Assembly: GCA_951812755.1 (NCBI GenBank)
Contig: OX638329.1
Coordinates: 1,845,339 to 1,909,338 of the forward strand
DNA from: an uncultured Latescibacterota bacterium
Lineage (GTDB): Bacteria > Latescibacterota > UBA2968
Reading direction: 5' to 3'
DNA: 64,000 bases
Positions within the stretch are counted from its first letter, which is position 1. The number at the start of each line of letters is the position of its first letter. Under the pieces are notes generated by a model. That model did no database searches. It was not told the origin of the DNA and worked only from the letters and a program-made list of their open reading frames with translations. Below are positions 3,913-20,321 of the stretch, piece after piece. Position numbers and translations under genes: made by a program.

Positions 3913-6339
3913 TTAGTTGCGCACGCGGAATATGGCTCGGCGCTTGGCGCGTTTTTTGACCTGCAAATCCGTTATTGCGACTTCGAGTTTGTACACGCCG
4001 CGCGGCATTTTGGACAGGTCAATTTCCAGGAAGGTGAAGTCGTCGGATTTGTCGCCGGCATATACAGAACTGATCGATGTGCGGCTTTGCTGCCCGGCTC
4101 GGCGCAGTTCTTCGAGGGACTCGGCCATCAGGTTGCGTTCGGCAGGCATGTATTGCACTTCAAAATCTACGGTTTTGGCTTTGAGATTTTCTTCCCCGCC
4201 AGCCATGGCATCGCCTAACTGGGCTTCTTCATCTGGCATCTCGTCTTCGCCAAATGTGCCATCTGTGCCGTCGAGCGCGCTGCCTGCGGCGAGTATTTCA
4301 CTACTGGAGCGATCATCTTCTTCTACTTGCGCCAATTCTTCGGCAGTTGGCACAATTAGCAATCCGCCTACCTTTTTGAGGGCTACGGCGCCAAACATCG
4401 CGGGATTTACTTCCTCATTATCGGGAACGCTAATGGTGTAGGTGATTTCGTATTGGGTGCGTCCAAATTCGTCTTTTTTCAGGTTGTAGATTTCCAGATA
4501 GACATAGGCCGATTGCCCGGTGCGATATGCGCGGAGAGGATTGGGTGCAATGCGCAAATCCATTCGCGTTTCGGGAAAGGGTTTGGCCAGTTCAATTTTT
4601 TTGGCGAGCAACAGATCGCTCATGTCCAGGCTTGATTCAGATACTGTCAAAAGGCGTTCTGTGCGGAATGTGCCGATGGAGCCGCTGGTTCTATCGCCCA
4701 CTTCGACCACGATATTATAAGTGCCCTGGGGAAGTGTCATGGCGCGTTGGCTCAACAAATACTGCGGGGCATTGCCTCCTTTGGGCTTCTTTTGCTCAAT
4801 CGGTCGCACATTGCGGTAGATGTCTTGCCACCGGTAATCGAACATAAATAACCCTTCATCCATGACGATCATCTGGTCGTTCTTTGCTTTTAATTTGCCC
4901 GTGGGAATGGCATAAGCGATTTCCATGCGCATGTTTTTTCCCGAGCGGAAGGCGGTGATCTGGTGTGGCATGGAGTATTTTCTGTTCTGGAATGGATCGA
5001 CAAAACGCGCTTCTTTTTTCTTAAATGCCGCTCGGTTTTGTATTTCAAAATACTCTTCGCGCATCCTGTCGCTCGCCCATCGCGTGTTGGTAGATCTCCT
5101 GAAGAGCGTTTGTTCTACTTGCCTTGAATCCACATTGCGGGTTCTCAGGGCATTGGGGTCCGTGCCTGTGATATCGACCGTGCTGCTCGGTCCGACTTCG
5201 CCTGCAAATCCCCAACCGTCAACGCCATTCACACTTTGAAATGTGAACCTGTATCCCCCGTAATACCACGTTTCCTTGAACATGGGAAATACGCCCGTTG
5301 TTCGCCGCTGATATTTTCCGTATTTGATATAGGTTTGTCCGCGAATGGTCTTCCACCCTTCGATGTTTCTCGCAGGCACGCTAAAGCGCAGATTTGCATA
5401 GGCCACGCGACCGTAGTGCTCCATCCGACGCTCGTTGTGATTGGTCAGAAATAGCGGATCATTCTTGTTCCAAAATTGCGTCAATGCCTCAGAATCCTTC
5501 CACTCGCTATCGTCGCCGACTTGCATGGCTTTTGAGATGCGCGCACTGTCTTCTTTTGATGCGATGAGATCCACGGATTCCATCATTTTGCGCTGTTCGG
5601 GATCCATGGCTGCAATGGCCTGTTCATACAATTTGTTCGCCTCTAAAAGCTCTCCTTGAATTTGATGGGAGTAGGCCAAAAATAACTGCGCGTTGGTATC
5701 GCCAGGAAATCTCCGCATCATCCGCCGCATCACCCGTTGCATGGCGGGGATTCTCCTGTGTTCCAGATGCGCCAGTCCCAATAGATAATAGGAGTCCTGA
5801 TAGTCTGGATCGACCTCCAGGCTCTTTTCAAACAGCATCACAGCCTGGTCGTATTCGTTCTTGGCAAAAGTTCGAATGGCTCGCCGCTGCGGTATTACCC
5901 GGTCGCGCGTGATCATGTATTCGCCGAATATATGGCGACCAGCATCGTAGGCTGCAATAGCTGCATTGGGAAATTTTTCTATGACTTTTTCATAGTGTGC
6001 CTTGGCCTCGCGCTGAAATCCCCGGTTCCACAATGCCTCGCCGTGCAAGAGTTGATATTGCAGATTTTCCGTGTCAATCCGAATTGCTTTTTCACTGGCT
6101 TCTACTGCGCGGCGTCGAAACTCGGGCGTGTCCAGACGAATGTAGAGGCGGGTCAGTTGTGCAAGTGCCGGGGTATATTTGCCGTTTTTCTTTAAGACCT
6201 GCTTAAATTCTTCCACGCTTTCTTTTGGTTCAATTTCATTCATGCGCGACAGGGCAGCGTGATAGAGCGAATCTACTTCGCCAGTCCATGCCGGTGCTGC
6301 GACCAGGCAGGTGAGGATCAAAAGCGAGAAGGCTTTCAT
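3913..6339 (-). CDS. GWxTD-domain protein with TPR-like N-terminus (paralogue 1)
   Basis: The start is taken at the ATG at 6337-6339, which has a GGAG site and begins a signal peptide (MKAFSLLILTCLVAAPAWTG). The protein is about 808 residues. Residues about 25-260 are TPR-like helical repeats (YYLLGLAHLEHRRIP, AIRIDTENLQYQLLHGEAL). The middle contains the GWxTD-family segment PLFLTNHNERRMEHYGRV followed by GQTYIKYGKYQRR. The C-terminal 300 residues are beta-rich. An acidic linker (EEDDRSSSEI, FGEDEMPDEEAQLG) separates the last two beta regions. The family is usually exported and of unknown function. It is the second of two tandem copies, and the N-terminal half is almost identical to its neighbour. 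Confidence 0.8.
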   Translation of the reverse strand: MKAFSLLILTCLVAAPAWTGEVDSLYHAALSRMNEIEPKESVEEFKQVLKKNGKYTPALAQLTRLYIRLDTPEFRRRAVEASEKAIRIDTENLQYQLLHGEALWNRGFQREAKAHYEKVIEKFPNAAIAAYDAGRHIFGEYMITRDRVIPQRRAIRTFAKNEYDQAVMLFEKSLEVDPDYQDSYYLLGLAHLEHRRIPAMQRVMRRMMRRFPGDTNAQLFLAYSHQIQGELLEANKLYEQAIAAMDPEQRKMMESVDLIASKEDSARISKAMQVGDDSEWKDSEALTQFWNKNDPLFLTNHNERRMEHYGRVAYANLRFSVPARNIEGWKTIRGQTYIKYGKYQRRTTGVFPMFKETWYYGGYRFTFQSVNGVDGWGFAGEVGPSSTVDITGTDPNALRTRNVDSRQVEQTLFRRSTNTRWASDRMREEYFEIQNRAAFKKKEARFVDPFQNRKYSMPHQITAFRSGKNMRMEIAYAIPTGKLKAKNDQMIVMDEGLFMFDYRWQDIYRNVRPIEQKKPKGGNAPQYLLSQRAMTLPQGTYNIVVEVGDRTSGSIGTFRTERLLTVSESSLDMSDLLLAKKIELAKPFPETRMDLRIAPNPLRAYRTGQSAYVYLEIYNLKKDEFGRTQYEITYTISVPDNEEVNPAMFGAVALKKVGGLLIVPTAEELAQVEEDDRSSSEILAAGSALDGTDGTFGEDEMPDEEAQLGDAMAGGEENLKAKTVDFEVQYMPAERNLMAESLEELRRAGQQSRTSISSVYAGDKSDDFTFLEIDLSKMPRGVYKLEVAITDLQVKKRAKRRAIFRVRN

Positions 6340-6376
6340 GGTAATCTCCATTAAAGGGTTCTTTTGCGAGTGGCGT

Positions 6377-8689
6377 TTACTCACGGACTCGGAACACGGC
6401 GTTGCGCTTTACTTGTTTTTTTACCTTCAAATCCGTTATTGCGACTTCGAGTTTGTAAATGCCACGTGGCATCGTAGATAGGTCGATTTCCAGGAAGGTG
6501 AAGTCGTCGGATTTGTCGCCGGCATATACTGAACTGATCGATGTGCTACTCTGCTGACCGGCCCGGCGCAGTTCTTCGAGGGATTCGGCCATCTGATTGC
6601 GTTCGGCCAGGACGTATCGGACTCTCAAATTCGCTCGCTTTTTGCGCGTTTGTGTATTTCCAGATTGGGCTTTCTCTTTTGACGCGTCGCTGGTAACACT
6701 TTGTCCGGGCGGCGACACAATGAGCAATCCGTCTAGCTCTGTAAGGTCTATGGCGCCGAACATCGAAGGATCTACTTCCCCTTTATCGGGTACGCTGATG
6801 CTATAGACAATTTGATATTGGGTGCGTCCAAATTCGTCTTTTTTTAAGTTGTAAATTTCCAGATAGACAGATGCCGATTGCCCGGTGCGATATGCGCGGA
6901 GAGGATTGGGTGTGATGCTCAGGTCTGTGCGCTTTTCGGGAAAGGGATTGATTGTTTCAATTTTCTGGGCGAGTAACAGGTCACTCATGTCCAGACTTGA
7001 TTCAGATACGGTCAAAAGGCGTTCTGTGCGAAATGTGCCGATGGTGCCGCTGGTTCTATCGCCTACTTCGACTACCACATTATAGGTGCCCTGAGGAAGT
7101 GTCATGGCACGTCGGCTCAACAGATATTGCTGTGCATTTTTCCCCGATGGTCGTTTCTGTCCAATCGGTCGCACATTGCGGTAGAGGTCTCGCCACAGGT
7201 AATCGAACATAAATAACCCCTCATCCATGACGATCATCTGGTCGTCATTTGCTTTTAATTTGCCCGTGGGAATGGCATAAGCGATTTCCATGCGCATATT
7301 TTTCCCTGCGCGGAAGGCGGTGATCTGGTGCGGCAAGGTGTATTTCCGACTGTGGAATGGATCGACAAAATGAGCTTCCACTTTTTTAAACGCCGACCGA
7401 TTTTTAATGTCGTAATACTCGTCAAGGATTCGTTTACTCCTCGGTATCGAACTTCTCGAACTCGAACTTCCCAACCTCCTCGAGCTTCTTCCGAACGAGC
7501 CCATTCTGGCTGCACGCGTCACATCGACCGTGCTGCTCGGTCCCACTTCACCCGCAAATCCCCAACCGTCAACGCCATTCACACTTTGAAAGACGAAGTG
7601 GTATCCGTCGTAGTACCACGTTTCCTTGAACATGGGATATACGCCTGTTACACGTCGCTGATACTTTCCGTATTTGATGTAGGTTTGTCCGCGAATGGTC
7701 TTCCACCCTTCGATGTTCCGCGCGGGTACGCTAAAGCGCAAATTGGCATACGCCACGCGCCCGTAGTGTTCCATCCGACGCTCGTTGTGATTGGTCAAAA
7801 ATAGGGGATCGTTCTTGTTCCAGAATTGCGTCAATGCTGCAGAATCTTTCCACTCACCATCGTCGCCGACTTGCATGGCTTTTGAGATGCGCGCACTGTC
7901 TTCTTTTGATGCGATGAGATCTACAGATTCCATCATTTTGCGCTGTTCGGGACCCATGGCTGCGATGGCCTGTTCATACAATTTGTTCGCCTCTGGAAGA
8001 TTGCGCTGAAGCTGGTGCGAATAGGCCATGAACAACTGCGCGTTGATGTCGCCAGGGAATCTCCGCATCATTCTCCGCATCACCCGTTGCATTGCGGGGA
8101 TTCTCCTGTGTTCCAGATGCGCCAGTCCCAACAGATAATAGGAGTCCTGATAGTCTGGATCGACCTCCAGGCTCTTTTCCAATAGCATCACGGCCTGGTC
8201 GTATTCGTTCTTGGCAAAGGTCCGAATCGCACCTCGCCGCTGAATGATCCGGTCGCGCGTGATCATGTATTCGCCGAATATATGGCGGCCAGCATCGTAG
8301 GCTGCAACGGCTGCATTGGGGAATTTTTCTATGACCTTTTCATAGTGCGCCTTTGCTTCGCGCTGAAATCCCCGGTTCCACAATGCCTCGCCGTGCAAGA
8401 GTTGATATTGCAAATTTTCCGTGTCAATCCGAATTGCTTTTTCGCTGGCTTCTACTGCGCGGCGTCGAAACTCGGGCGTGTCCAGGCGAATGTAGAGGCG
8501 GGTCAGTTGTGCAAGTGCCGGGGCATATTTGCCGTTTTTCTTGAGTACTTGCTTAAATTCTTCCACGCTTTCTTTGGGTTCAATTTCATTCATGCGTGTG
8601 AGTGCGTCGTGATAGAGTGAATCTACTTCGCCAGTCCATGCCGGTGCTGCGATCAGGCAGGTGAAGATCAAAAGCGAGAGGGCTTTCAT
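6377..8689 (-). CDS. GWxTD-domain protein with TPR-like N-terminus (paralogue 2)
   Basis: The start is the ATG at 8687-8689, preceded by AAGGAG and beginning the signal peptide MKALSLLIFTCLIAAPAWTG. The 770-residue product has the same order as its neighbour: signal, TPR-like repeats, GWxTD segment, beta-rich C-terminus. Two stretches differ strongly. One is a Ser/Arg-rich block (MGSFGRSSRRLGSSSSRSS, encoded near 7430-7510) where the paralogue has an unrelated sequence. The other is a shorter basic linker (NTQTRKKRANLRVRY) in place of the acidic one. The rest is highly conserved even at the nucleotide level, which indicates recent duplication or gene conversion. The gap to the next gene is 37 bases. 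Confidence 0.8.
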   Translation of the reverse strand: MKALSLLIFTCLIAAPAWTGEVDSLYHDALTRMNEIEPKESVEEFKQVLKKNGKYAPALAQLTRLYIRLDTPEFRRRAVEASEKAIRIDTENLQYQLLHGEALWNRGFQREAKAHYEKVIEKFPNAAVAAYDAGRHIFGEYMITRDRIIQRRGAIRTFAKNEYDQAVMLLEKSLEVDPDYQDSYYLLGLAHLEHRRIPAMQRVMRRMMRRFPGDINAQLFMAYSHQLQRNLPEANKLYEQAIAAMGPEQRKMMESVDLIASKEDSARISKAMQVGDDGEWKDSAALTQFWNKNDPLFLTNHNERRMEHYGRVAYANLRFSVPARNIEGWKTIRGQTYIKYGKYQRRVTGVYPMFKETWYYDGYHFVFQSVNGVDGWGFAGEVGPSSTVDVTRAARMGSFGRSSRRLGSSSSRSSIPRSKRILDEYYDIKNRSAFKKVEAHFVDPFHSRKYTLPHQITAFRAGKNMRMEIAYAIPTGKLKANDDQMIVMDEGLFMFDYLWRDLYRNVRPIGQKRPSGKNAQQYLLSRRAMTLPQGTYNVVVEVGDRTSGTIGTFRTERLLTVSESSLDMSDLLLAQKIETINPFPEKRTDLSITPNPLRAYRTGQSASVYLEIYNLKKDEFGRTQYQIVYSISVPDKGEVDPSMFGAIDLTELDGLLIVSPPGQSVTSDASKEKAQSGNTQTRKKRANLRVRYVLAERNQMAESLEELRRAGQQSSTSISSVYAGDKSDDFTFLEIDLSTMPRGIYKLEVAITDLKVKKQVKRNAVFRVRE

Positions 8690-16092: not shown

Positions 16093-18519
16093 ATGATATT
16101 CAAGAGAAAGTCTATTATTGGATTGTTGGTGGCGATGGGGCTTGTTTTCGCAGGGGTTGCTTATGCCCAAACCGCAGCGGATGTGGATTATGATGGCGAT
16201 GGCGTAGTTGGGGTTGGCGATTTCTTGTTGTTTGTCGCCAGGTTTGGGACCAGTCAGGGTGATGGAAAGTACGAGGCAAAGTACGATCTGGATGGTGATG
16301 GACAGGTGGGTGTGTCAGACTTTTTGGTGTTCGTTGGGTTTTTTGGTCAAAGTACTGTTTCCAAAGAGGCTCCTCCGATATTAAAGCGGATCGGCGACCA
16401 AAGTGTACCAGCGGGCGTTAAATTGACTCTGAATTTGATCGCTTCCGATCCAAATGGGGATAACCTGACCTACTCGGTGAGTGGTCGCCCAGCGGGATCA
16501 TGGCTGTCGGGAACTACCTTCAGTTGGACCCCAACCAGCGGTCAGTCTGGAACGTATCGGGTCACGTTCACAGTAAGAGACGGCAAAGGGGGAACAGATA
16601 CCGAGACGATCACCATTAGTGTCGTAGCGTTCCGGTTCAATTTGATCAGGTACCAAGTTGAGACCGAGTTGCCCAGCTTTGTCAATATTATGTTCCAGGT
16701 GCAAGACTCCGATGGGCAGGGAGTGAACTTCCTGAGGACCGAACACTTTGAAGTGAAAGAGGATGGCCGGGCGGTATCTCCTACCGAGTCGGCGATGCGT
16801 ATTCGTAAGCGGGATGTCATTCCCTATTCGCTGAAGACTGTTCTGATGCTCGACACCAGCACGAGTGTAAGGGATCAATTAGAGGATATTAAAGACGCGG
16901 CGATCGCTTTGGTGGAAAACATGACCGATCAGCAAGAGTTCGCGTTGTACGAATTCTCTGAAGAACCGGTTCTCTTGCAGGATTTTACGAATGATGTAGA
17001 GGTCCTGACCAGGGCGATCCGGGGTATCCGTTTGGGGTTTGCGACCACCAACCTGTACGGTAGTGTTATTGAGGGAAGTGCGCGGTGGAAGGATATCTAT
17101 GCTGTAACCGAAGTACAGCAAGGGTTTATGATCATCCTGACCGACGGGAGTGACACACAAGCGTCCAGTACCCTGGATGAGGCACTCAGGGCGCGGGGAA
17201 ACAAGAATATCTACACAATCGGCCTGGGGGACGAGATCGAACCGGATGTCCTGCGACGGCTTGGCAATGCCGGGTTTTTCGAACTCGGTGATGTGAGCGA
17301 ACTGGCCGCCCAGTTTATCGAGATTCAGAACGAGATTGCGTTGTTTGCGGATAGCTTCTACCAGCTAAATTATATGAGCCCTAAGCGGGGAGACAGAGAT
17401 CATACGCTGGAGTTGCGTGTGAAGGAGAACCAGAACAATTCCACAGTCCGAGGGGGGTTCAACAGCAGGTGTTTCTTTTCGACGCGCGACCCGATCGTGG
17501 TCGTCAATCCTTCGTGTTCCAATAATAGAGGGATTGAGGAACTGCGAATCCCTGAGGGCGATGCAGTGCAGCTCCAGGCTGCGACATACCTGGGTACCCA
17601 ATCCCCGCAGTATAGCTGGACATCGAGCGATAACCATATCGTCGTGGTAGTGCAAGATGCGGATGATCCGGCGATGGCGTTGGCAGCAGCGGTTGGGGAC
17701 GGCGGACAGACCGCGACTATAACGGTGTTTGACCATGCAAATGGGTTGAGCAGACAGGTGAAGGTAGAGGTATTACCTCTAATTTCCTTCACATTATCAG
17801 GGGACGCATCGCTGGAGATGGTATGGATAGAGCCGGGAACATTTCAGATGGGATCGCCTTCCTCCGAGCAGGGTCGATATAGTGACGAGGGACCAGTGCA
17901 TGACGTGACGATCAGCCAGGGATTCTACTTGGGGACGTATGAGGTGACGCAGGAGCAATGGGAATCAGTGATGGGTACTCGTCCTTGGCAAGGTGAAAGT
18001 TATGTGCGTTCGGGATCGAATTATCCTGCGGTATATGTATCGTGGGAGGATGCACAGGAGTTTATCCGCCGTTTAAATGCGTCTCAGGGTTCGAATGTGT
18101 ATCGTTTGCCAACAGAGGCAGAGTGGGAGTATGCGTGTCGGGCTGGGACAACGACGCGCTGGTCTTTTGGAGATGATGAGAGCCAATTGACGCATTATGC
18201 GTGGTATCATGATAATGCGTGGGGTGTGGGAGAGCAGTATGCTCATCTCGTAGGCACAAAACGAGCGAATCCCTGGGGCTTGTATGACATGCATGGCAAT
18301 GTGTGGGAGTGGGTGCAGGATTGGTATGGTAATACTTATTATCGTTCTTCTCCATCGGTGGATCCGGCTGGTCCGTCGTCAGGCTCGTTTCGCGTTATGC
18401 GGGGCGGTTTCTTCTTCGACGGCGCCCGGAGTTTGCGGTCGGCGATTCGCAACCACAATTATTCGCCCAGCTACCGCGACGGCACCGTTGGGTTTCGTCT
18501 TCTGAGACAGGCCCAGTAG
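16093..18519 (+). CDS. Secreted vWA protein with C-terminal FGE-like domain; probable DGR target
   Basis: The 808-residue protein has a signal peptide (1-25), then two EF-hand-like dockerin-type repeats (31-86, DYDGDGVVGVGDFLLF and DLDGDGQVGVSDFLVF). A cadherin-like Ig domain follows (92-177), then a vWA domain (248-415) with a complete DTSTS MIDAS motif at 254-258 and ILTDGSD at 348-354. After an Ig-like region comes an FGE/sulfatase-modifying-factor fold (574-805: MVWIEPGTFQMGSP, RLPTEAEWEYACRAG, GNVWEWVQDW). The catalytic cysteines of true FGE are not seen. The last 38 residues have the codon pattern of a DGR variable region. The likely role is a surface or secreted ligand-binding protein. 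The GGGAGGG site is 6 bases before the ATG. Confidence 0.85.
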   Translation: MIFKRKSIIGLLVAMGLVFAGVAYAQTAADVDYDGDGVVGVGDFLLFVARFGTSQGDGKYEAKYDLDGDGQVGVSDFLVFVGFFGQSTVSKEAPPILKRIGDQSVPAGVKLTLNLIASDPNGDNLTYSVSGRPAGSWLSGTTFSWTPTSGQSGTYRVTFTVRDGKGGTDTETITISVVAFRFNLIRYQVETELPSFVNIMFQVQDSDGQGVNFLRTEHFEVKEDGRAVSPTESAMRIRKRDVIPYSLKTVLMLDTSTSVRDQLEDIKDAAIALVENMTDQQEFALYEFSEEPVLLQDFTNDVEVLTRAIRGIRLGFATTNLYGSVIEGSARWKDIYAVTEVQQGFMIILTDGSDTQASSTLDEALRARGNKNIYTIGLGDEIEPDVLRRLGNAGFFELGDVSELAAQFIEIQNEIALFADSFYQLNYMSPKRGDRDHTLELRVKENQNNSTVRGGFNSRCFFSTRDPIVVVNPSCSNNRGIEELRIPEGDAVQLQAATYLGTQSPQYSWTSSDNHIVVVVQDADDPAMALAAAVGDGGQTATITVFDHANGLSRQVKVEVLPLISFTLSGDASLEMVWIEPGTFQMGSPSSEQGRYSDEGPVHDVTISQGFYLGTYEVTQEQWESVMGTRPWQGESYVRSGSNYPAVYVSWEDAQEFIRRLNASQGSNVYRLPTEAEWEYACRAGTTTRWSFGDDESQLTHYAWYHDNAWGVGEQYAHLVGTKRANPWGLYDMHGNVWEWVQDWYGNTYYRSSPSVDPAGPSSGSFRVMRGGFFFDGARSLRSAIRNHNYSPSYRDGTVGFRLLRQAQ
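18403..18519 (+). other. Putative DGR variable region (VR)
   Basis: In residues 771-805 the positions that vary in FGE-type DGR targets are almost all NNC or NNT codons (TTC, GAC, GGC, AGT, ATT, CAC, TAT, AGC, TAC, GAC, GGC, ACC). Each can arise from AAC or AAT by changes at the first two bases. Interleaved codons (CGG, TTG, TCG, GCG, CGC, CCC, GTT, GGG) contain no adenine. This is what adenine-specific mutagenic retrohoming leaves. No template repeat is seen in the window, so the assignment is by pattern. Confidence 0.65.
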
Positions 18520-18629
18520 CTCTTTTCTCTTTTACGCTTTTGCGCTTTGTTGTTTTGAGTTGGTATAAATTGTGAATATGTCTGTTAGCTTATGTGTGTG
18601 TATGTTTTGGAGGGGTAAACTGGCGTGAG

Positions 18630-18665
18630 CGCAATGCCGAGCGTGTGTAACCGCCGTGCATTGCG
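18630..18665. repeat. Inverted repeat CGCAATGC...GCATTGCG
   Basis: Eight-base arms pair perfectly around a 20-base loop, between the FGE-like gene and the HRDC gene. The role is unknown. It sits where many DGRs keep their template RNA, but no template-like sequence is present. Confidence 0.4.
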
Positions 18666-18691
18666 TGTGCGACAGTTTGGTGGGGGTGTTT

Positions 18692-18714
18692 CCCGCGAAG
18701 CGGGTCAATTTTTT
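18692..18714 (+). terminator. Hairpin CCCGC-GAA-GCGGG plus T run
   Basis: A five-base stem with a GAA loop is followed by TCAATTTTTT. It ends 10 bases before the HRDC ATG, so it may end the target-gene transcript or act as a leader attenuator. Confidence 0.5.
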
Positions 18715-18724
18715 GAGGGTATGA

Positions 18725-19192
18725 ATGAATGTGCGTGTGTTTACACTGCCTTTCAGTTCGGCTTTGGGTGGTTTTGACGATGGCGCGGTGCGTGAATTTG
18801 TCAAGGACAAAGAAGTGCTCGCGGTTCGAGATCACTTCTTTTTAAAAGATGAATCTCCCCACCTTGTTCTTGTCGTCACGTATAATATGCCGCGCCCAGA
18901 GCAAGAGATATCCACCCGAAAACCGCAGGTCAAAGAGGGTGGTCGTGATCGAGAAGCGTGGCGAAAGACATTAGAAGAAGCCGATTGGCCCTTGTTCAAC
19001 ACGCTCAGAGATTGGCGCAACGGACAGGCAAAAGAAGAAGGCATCCCGCCTTATGTCATCTGCACGAATCAGCAACTGGCTGAAATTGCACACCGCCGCC
19101 CTCTTAGCTTAAACAAACTTGCGGCTATTGAACGACTGGGAAAGGCCAAACTCGAACGGTATGGAAAGGCGATGCTGGGTTTCGACTTCTGA
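18725..19192 (+). CDS. HRDC-domain protein, DGR accessory type
   Basis: The 155-residue protein starts MNVRVFTLPFSSALGGFDD, then REFVKDKEVLAVRDHFF. It ends in an HRDC domain (about 88-150: LFNTLRDWRNGQAKEEGIPP, ICTNQQLAEIAHRRP, LAAIERLGKAKLERYGKAML). From established knowledge, small HRDC proteins of this layout are accessory genes of DGRs, either replacing or accompanying Avd next to the reverse transcriptase. Here it sits directly behind an FGE-type target gene but no reverse transcriptase follows. GAGGG precedes the ATG by 5 bases. HRDC domains bind nucleic acid, so a role in handling template RNA or cDNA is likely. Confidence 0.75.
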   Translation: MNVRVFTLPFSSALGGFDDGAVREFVKDKEVLAVRDHFFLKDESPHLVLVVTYNMPRPEQEISTRKPQVKEGGRDREAWRKTLEEADWPLFNTLRDWRNGQAKEEGIPPYVICTNQQLAEIAHRRPLSLNKLAAIERLGKAKLERYGKAMLGFDF

Positions 19193-19415
19193 GCACATGG
19201 TATTGCCCGATGAGGCCGTTTCAAGGATCGGTCTCCTGTGCATAAGGCCCTGTCCCGGGCTTCATCCTGCGCCGACATAGTTCGGACAAAGAGAACCGCT
19301 CGGCTCCGGCTGGTAGGTTATATCTCGAAGGCTGGAATCGATAGCAAAAGCCCGATCTGGTTAGGACAGGTCGGGCTTTTTGTTTCTGTTTAAGGCGCAA
19401 GATTGGGAGATCGCA
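19193..19415. other. Intergenic 223 bp between HRDC and Rpn-like genes
   Basis: No reverse transcriptase motif, no template-repeat match and no gene is visible. It contains the bidirectional terminator at 19346-19388. Confidence 0.6.
19346..19388 (+). terminator. Bidirectional terminator
   Basis: AAAAGCCCGA pairs with TCGGGCTTTT around a 15-base loop and is followed by TGTTTCTGTTT. It lies between convergent genes (HRDC plus, Rpn-like minus), and the A run at its left side also allows use on the minus strand. Confidence 0.8.
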
Positions 19416-20321
19416 TCACTCCTCTAACATATCCCGAAATGCCTCCAGACTGGACACCTGTATCGCTGCACGGTGCAACTGCTTGAGGTGTTGCAAATCT
19501 TCGATGGCAGCAATGCGAGCAGATAGGGGGTCTGTTTCGGACAAATCAAATCGAATCTCCAACACTTCAAGGATTCCTTCGAGTGTGCTTTTTATTTCTC
19601 CTTCCGCTCTGCCCTGCTTAATGCCCTGCTCAATGCCTTGTTGCTTAATGTATTGTGCAAACGATGACTCGCGCATAATGGCATCCATAAGACCCTCCTG
19701 TAATAGAATACGATTGATCAGTCTCGGATCATACTCTAACCCACTCAATATCATCAACCGACCCAAAAAGTCAACCTTTATTGATTCATCCACTGGCAGC
19801 GCATTCGTCGCGTCAACACAGTGACGCAACCACGTCTCTGAATCTATGCCAGCAGGACGTTTCATCAACGGTGCAAATGGAAACAAGCCCGAAGGCTCGC
19901 CATCAACAATATCCTGTCCCTCTATCTCACTCAACCGAATCACTGTGTATTTGATCACAACAAGATGGCCGGATATTTCCTGAATATAGTGCCCCGGATC
20001 GCGCCGACCTGCACTGCGCCGTAAATAGATCACACTGGAATAAATCGGCAGGTCGTGCTGCTCAATCGCACGTATAATATAGCCCGCCATGCGGCGCGGC
20101 ATAGATGGATCGTCAGTCGTCTGAAACTCGTGATGCACCAATGTCTCCTTGCCTGAGATATGGACGCGGATGAGGCTGTCCATGTGTCGTGTATCAACCG
20201 TGTTTTGCTCTGTGTCGAGTATGTTGAGGACCTCTACATCGTCCTGTTCAAGTGTGAGTCGGATAAAGTCTTTGGGATAGGTCTGGATCAGATCTTTGGA
20301 GACAGAGTCATATTCGGCCAT
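19416..20321 (-). CDS. Rpn family (recombination-promoting nuclease-like) PD-(D/E)XK protein
   Basis: The 301-residue protein shows the Rpn/putative-transposase pattern: HMDSLIRVHISGKETLVHHE followed by FQTTDDPSMPRRMAGYI, containing the Glu-x-Gln form of the PD-(D/E)XK active site, then the PIYSSVIYLRR strand. The C-terminal part has the short repeat KQQGIEQGIKQGRAEGEI and an alpha-helical tail, typical of this family. Members cut DNA and promote RecA-independent recombination, and they behave as mobile or defence-associated genes. It is convergent with the DGR-type locus. The initial ATG starts MAEYDSVSKDLIQTYPKDF, which is normal for the family. Confidence 0.8.
   Translation of the reverse strand: MAEYDSVSKDLIQTYPKDFIRLTLEQDDVEVLNILDTEQNTVDTRHMDSLIRVHISGKETLVHHEFQTTDDPSMPRRMAGYIIRAIEQHDLPIYSSVIYLRRSAGRRDPGHYIQEISGHLVVIKYTVIRLSEIEGQDIVDGEPSGLFPFAPLMKRPAGIDSETWLRHCVDATNALPVDESIKVDFLGRLMILSGLEYDPRLINRILLQEGLMDAIMRESSFAQYIKQQGIEQGIKQGRAEGEIKSTLEGILEVLEIRFDLSETDPLSARIAAIEDLQHLKQLHRAAIQVSSLEAFRDMLEE

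Follow-up and report, generated by a model that had tools for sequence, protein, structure and literature searches.

Remains of a diversity-generating retroelement, very probably inactive, beside an FGE-domain gene of a Latescibacterota bacterium

Our analysis indicates that the region in and behind an 808-aa ORF of an uncultured Latescibacterota bacterium is very probably what is left of an HRDC-type diversity-generating retroelement (DGR), a fossil from which the reverse transcriptase (RT) and nearly all of the template repeat (TR) have been deleted, rather than an active DGR. The last variant of its variable repeat (VR) now appears frozen, and ongoing diversification of this VR is not supported. 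The window, that is, the whole 64,000-nt stretch of DNA analysed, is G000:C1:1845339-1909338, part of a genome assembled as a single contig of 6,530,187 bases (99.58% complete). In window coordinates, the features of interest are:

16093-18519, plus strand: DGR target gene, 808 aa (Pfam; orthologs with the same architecture in the relatives G007 and G046)
18409-18506, plus strand: VR, 15 AAY-derived codons amid A-free framework codons, ending TGGGTTTCGTCTTCTGAG (codon pattern and relatives)
18617-18678, no strand assigned: imperfect inverted repeat, 76% over arms of 21 nt, lying roughly 100 bp beyond the stop codon of the target, between the target and the HRDC gene
18725-19192, plus strand: HRDC-domain accessory gene, 155 aa (PF00570, E=2.5e-20), its C-terminus fused to the template tail
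19176-19193, plus strand: 3' tail of the lost TR, TGGGTTTCGACTTCTGAG, 17/18 identical to the VR end at 18489-18506
19183-19293, plus strand: post-template element, made up of the TR-type end CTGAGCACA and some 100 bp whose homologue in locus L188 lies 3' of the TR (alignment)

The target gene and its variable repeat

Behind an N-terminal signal peptide, read from the sequence, Pfam finds a dockerin-like repeat, Ig/He_PIG, VWA and FGE-sulfatase domains in the 808-aa ORF. The FGE (C-type lectin) domain is C-terminal, at aa 575-805 (PF03781), and the protein ends RGGFFFDGARSLRSAIRNHNYSPSYRDGTVGFRLLRQAQ. An AlphaFold model of this domain (pTM 0.86) has Treponema denticola TvpA (2y3c, TM 0.83) as its best PDB fold match, and TvpA is the first match of the target by sequence as well, so that profile, model and fold match all describe a C-type-lectin-fold target with the VR at its C-terminus. 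The first-pass annotation had placed the VR there, where known targets carry theirs, and this placement holds. True FGE (formylglycine-generating enzyme, sulfatase-modifying factor) has a catalytic cysteine pair. No such pair follows RGGS in the target (RGGFFFDGARSLRSA), while paralog L017 has it (RGGSYLCHDSYCNRY), which makes an enzymatic role for the target domain unlikely. Most simply, this secreted VWA/dockerin/lectin protein is predicted to be a surface or extracellular ligand-binder.

The 15 variable codons are TTC (18409), TTC (18415), GAC (18418), GGC (18421), AGT (18430), ATT (18445), AAC (18451), CAC (18454), AAT (18457), TAT (18460), AGC (18469), TAC (18472), GAC (18478), GGC (18481) and ACC (18484). 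C or T is the last base of every one of them (P = 6e-5 from local usage), and all can be derived from AAC or AAT by changes at bases 1 and 2; the 20 framework codons are free of A throughout (P = 0.002, given the residues), just as had been described for codons 773-798 at first reading. Every A between 18400 and 18504 sits within a variable codon. Among 12,768 windows drawn from the main ORFs of the stretch, a 30-codon run without A outside NNY codons is unique to the VR, and the same stretch in the FGE paralogs of this genome holds 2-12 codons with A in an NNR context, against 0 in the target ORF. The residues F, D, N, H and Y themselves force part of the C/T-ending pattern, and for this reason the comparison with relatives outweighs the test on the single sequence.

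Orthologs with the same architecture are found in G007 (835 aa) and G046 (1052 aa), and a third, in G003, has the same flanking genes, a 689-aa penicillin-binding-type protein and a 309-aa phosphoesterase (names from sequence reading). The G003 ortholog (L151, G003:C35) is interrupted just before the VR by a stop and by an internal gap that takes out part of the FGE domain, and could be a pseudogene or an assembly fault. When windows of 26 codons were slid over the whole gene and scored as differences at positions 1 and 2 minus twice those at position 3, the one starting exactly at 18409 came out above all others in the comparisons with G007 (Fisher p = 7e-6) and with G046 (p = 0.0019); for G003, p = 0.015. 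Among VR codons differing at base 1 or 2, base 3 was kept in 17/21, 11/14 and 9/10 cases in the three relatives, and within G046, which has three VRs of the target's class, all 47 of 47 differing codon pairs change bases 1 or 2 with the third base unchanged. FGE sequence upstream of the VR shows ordinary third-base change. Variation between species is present at the variable codons, which share their third bases with relatives, and the VR substitutions are confined to template adenines, positions that are deduced from the relatives (except at 19185/18498) because the template itself is lost. Such base-1/2-biased change is the fingerprint of a DGR, one that diversifying selection would not be expected to leave, and it bears out the mark of adenine-directed mutagenesis that had been proposed from codon composition. 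In G003 and G007 the VR is kept and the HRDC gene lost; their VRs therefore back the target but not the cassette.

Remnants of the cassette downstream of the target

The sequence behind the VR retains parts of a cassette. Where an IMH and post-VR hairpin might be looked for, the VR ends CTGAGACAG against the TR-type end CTGAGCACA, and the imperfect inverted repeat at 18617-18678 is possibly a post-VR hairpin or a terminator. G046 has a different, strong inverted repeat at the equivalent place after its VR. The next gene supplies the accessory protein, which in DGRs may be Avd or HRDC and is HRDC here, with identities of 33% to the accessory protein of G048, 48.7% to that of L188 and 53% to that of G046. 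This gene ends in ...CTGGGTTTCGACTTCTGAGCACATGG, running into a template tail of only 18 nt whose sole mismatch with the VR end is an A in the template copy (19185) against a T in the VR (18498), the kind of difference to be expected between template and variable copies. The post-template element that follows aligns with positions 6387-6497 of L188 at 75% over 112 nt (E 2e-14; 7e-17 pairwise), and G031 has the same element at the same spacing, so that a three-way alignment of the stretch, L188 and G031 stays in register. L188 (SXND01000129.1) carries, within 4337-7741, a VR, HRDC, an Avd-like ORF, a TR and a second VR, with an RT lacking most of its N-terminal part; given this internal deletion in the RT, activity of the L188 cassette is unproven.

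What survives is therefore the arrangement VR, HRDC, [RT missing], TR tail and post-TR element, which in turn points to deletion in place of the RT and nearly all of the TR. With a cassette-type accessory gene and a template tail adjoining the target, the attribution of the signature to a DGR, first made from the VR alone, gains a second footing.

In the history we propose, the ancestral order would have been the target gene with its VR, the HRDC accessory gene, RT, TR and post-TR element. In copying the TR RNA, RT would have inserted random bases wherever the RNA had A; with the VR replaced by this cDNA, the AAY codons for the ligand face of the FGE/lectin domain would have been randomised. 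A later deletion would have taken out RT and all of the TR except its last ~20 nt, to which the HRDC end became joined, possibly via a 4-bp microhomology, TGGG, which is common to the HRDC end and the template end. The receptor would keep the last variant written, and rewriting by its own cassette would no longer be possible. Observed directly are the VR pattern, the HRDC gene, the TR tail, the post-TR element and the lack of an intact RT, a full TR and Avd; we infer that an RT once lay at this exact spot, that a single event deleted it, and that the protein functions as a receptor.

Related losses are seen elsewhere in the phylum. In G046, a broken HRDC gene is followed at once, at the matching place, by 18 residues of RT motif, GLPIGNLTRQYFAAFYLG. 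The G046 locus (L104, L342) has an ORF of at least 907 aa with two FGE domains, each with its own VR, and the broken HRDC gene comes after it. In G031 (L103, G031:C250), the end of the ORF has a VR-like first half and a template-like second half (AAT CGC AAC AAC AAC ... AAC AAC AAC) that leads into post-TR sequence, an apparent VR x TR recombination product, which suggests that the DGR core was deleted there by recombination between the repeats. A tentative and rather doubtful extension of these cases is that loss of RT and template by deletion in place, recurring time and again, is how these Latescibacterota generally fix hypervariable receptors. The stretch, G046 and G031 would then have been frozen independently of one another, an outcome perhaps favoured after a binding variant had proved useful.

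Missing template and RT, and a second DGR class

A near-identical template with AAC/AAT codons had been expected somewhere in the genome, and this expectation failed: beyond the 18-nt tail no TR is present, nor is an intact RT. The VR itself and an A-aware IUPAC pattern (<=3 mismatches) matched only the VR, which was also the only match in the genome in a BLAST search with the inferred AAC/AAT template, so that all there is of a TR for this VR is the 18-nt 3' tail with its post-TR element. Searches of the genome with PF00078 and a two-sequence DGR-RT profile found no intact DGR RT, and Avd is likewise absent from the genome; the stretch has no RT with (I/V/L)GxxxSQ and YxDD, and a lenient tblastn for RT debris over its 64 kb returned only noise. 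Rfam gave no match over 18300-19500. Among 60 phylum genomes no TR was found beyond G048's own type and the G031 chimera, and a profile search recovered an intact DGR RT in 2 of 64 phylum genomes, although further ones could be concealed in fragmented MAGs. In viral contigs, searches with two TR patterns turned up nothing TR-like; the RT profile did find phage DGR RTs there, with no matching template at the viral loci examined, and phage records held no post-TR element. The signature is best called historical because there is no TR beyond the tail and no intact RT.

These searches bear on the best of the alternatives, that a DGR active in trans, with RT and TR on a plasmid, phage or unassembled replicon, still rewrites the VR. 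Several relatives, among them the single-contig G046, do keep clean VRs without an RT, and little drift seems to have accumulated, as the variable codons keep the third bases seen in relatives. Against this, the cassette's TR tail and post-TR element adjoin the VR, so the template was local and is lost, and neither the phylum genomes nor the viral contigs yielded a matching TR. We consider continued rewriting in trans improbable.

The sole RT piece in the genome belongs to another DGR. It is 148 aa long (C1:4897154-4897513; L001, L160), truncated at both ends and without the GxxxSQ segment; it aligns at 84% identity with residues 239-360 of the RT of G008, a genome of the same genus in which that RT is intact, and lies close to FGE paralogs. 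Six orphan VRs of the G008-type class are scattered over the genome, and the inferred class-1 template matched only VRs in it. G008 itself has a complete Avd-RT-TR DGR (L149, G008:C1:4206001-4226000), made up of Avd (PF22296), an RT bearing the motifs GLPIGNLTSQ and YVDD, and a template located immediately behind the RT stop codon. Within 16 kb there are at least five FGE-type VR targets (the two checked by Pfam are both kinase-FGE). Mismatches between the five VRs and the template fall on 89 adenines and on 1 of 400 non-adenine positions. The remains of this DGR type and those of the target cassette together indicate, therefore, that two DGR classes once worked in the lineage, neither of them complete in G000.

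Could this second DGR (Avd-RT-TR1), rather than its own cassette, have served the target? Its truncated RT and its orphan VRs are indeed in the genome, and yet direct comparison shows that the framework bases of the target VR misfit TR1, the accessory gene here is HRDC and not Avd, and the local TR tail matches the target's own VR class, which leaves service by the second DGR very improbable. The idea that no retroelement was involved, and that a ligand-binding loop simply came under ordinary diversifying selection, can practically be dismissed even though the C-termini of FGE-like proteins vary in all paralogs throughout the genome. Selection would neither spare third bases, as is seen in all three relatives and within G046, nor strip A from framework codons, and the adjacent HRDC gene, TR tail and post-TR element would all need independent origins. 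Deletion of a local HRDC-type cassette is thus the reading we retain.

Comparison with known systems

Codon composition alone, as the case illustrates, is enough to recognise a DGR target, and even with the template gone the target can be confirmed by setting orthologs against each other at each of the three codon positions and by finding the deletion scar. A phylum is also added whose members include a genus with a complete DGR, truncated DGRs and orphan VRs side by side; there one can ask at what frequency and in which sequence hypermutation systems disappear, and whether selection still acts on the frozen receptors.

RT-less orphan targets and degenerate DGR loci are already known (PMC4891356, PMC10907252); the deletion scar here is unusually legible. 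The nearest likeness is to the TvpA DGR of T. denticola, with an FGE-subtype C-type-lectin target, a C-terminal VR and an HRDC accessory gene (PMC4891356, PMC6328139), HRDC being the accessory gene that T. denticola DGRs use (PMC4891356). There, 8 of 17 isolates are listed with target genes but without RT/TR and were read as remnants (PMC4891356, PMC6328139). Unlike TvpA, the present target adds dockerin, Ig and VWA domains, belongs to Latescibacterota, and lies next to a deletion scar that keeps the TR tail. Thiohalocapsa PB-PSB1 likewise has degenerate DGR loci with key machinery missing or pseudogenised, and vWA and kinase are among its target architectures; each class keeps one complete locus there, whereas here neither of the two DGR classes does (PMC10907252). 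Within the phylum, the DGR of G008 shares the genus and has FGE targets like those here, but its TR is of another class and it uses Avd, while the intact DGR of G048, from a distant family with its own TR, runs target-HRDC-RT-TR, the same order as here up to the RT.
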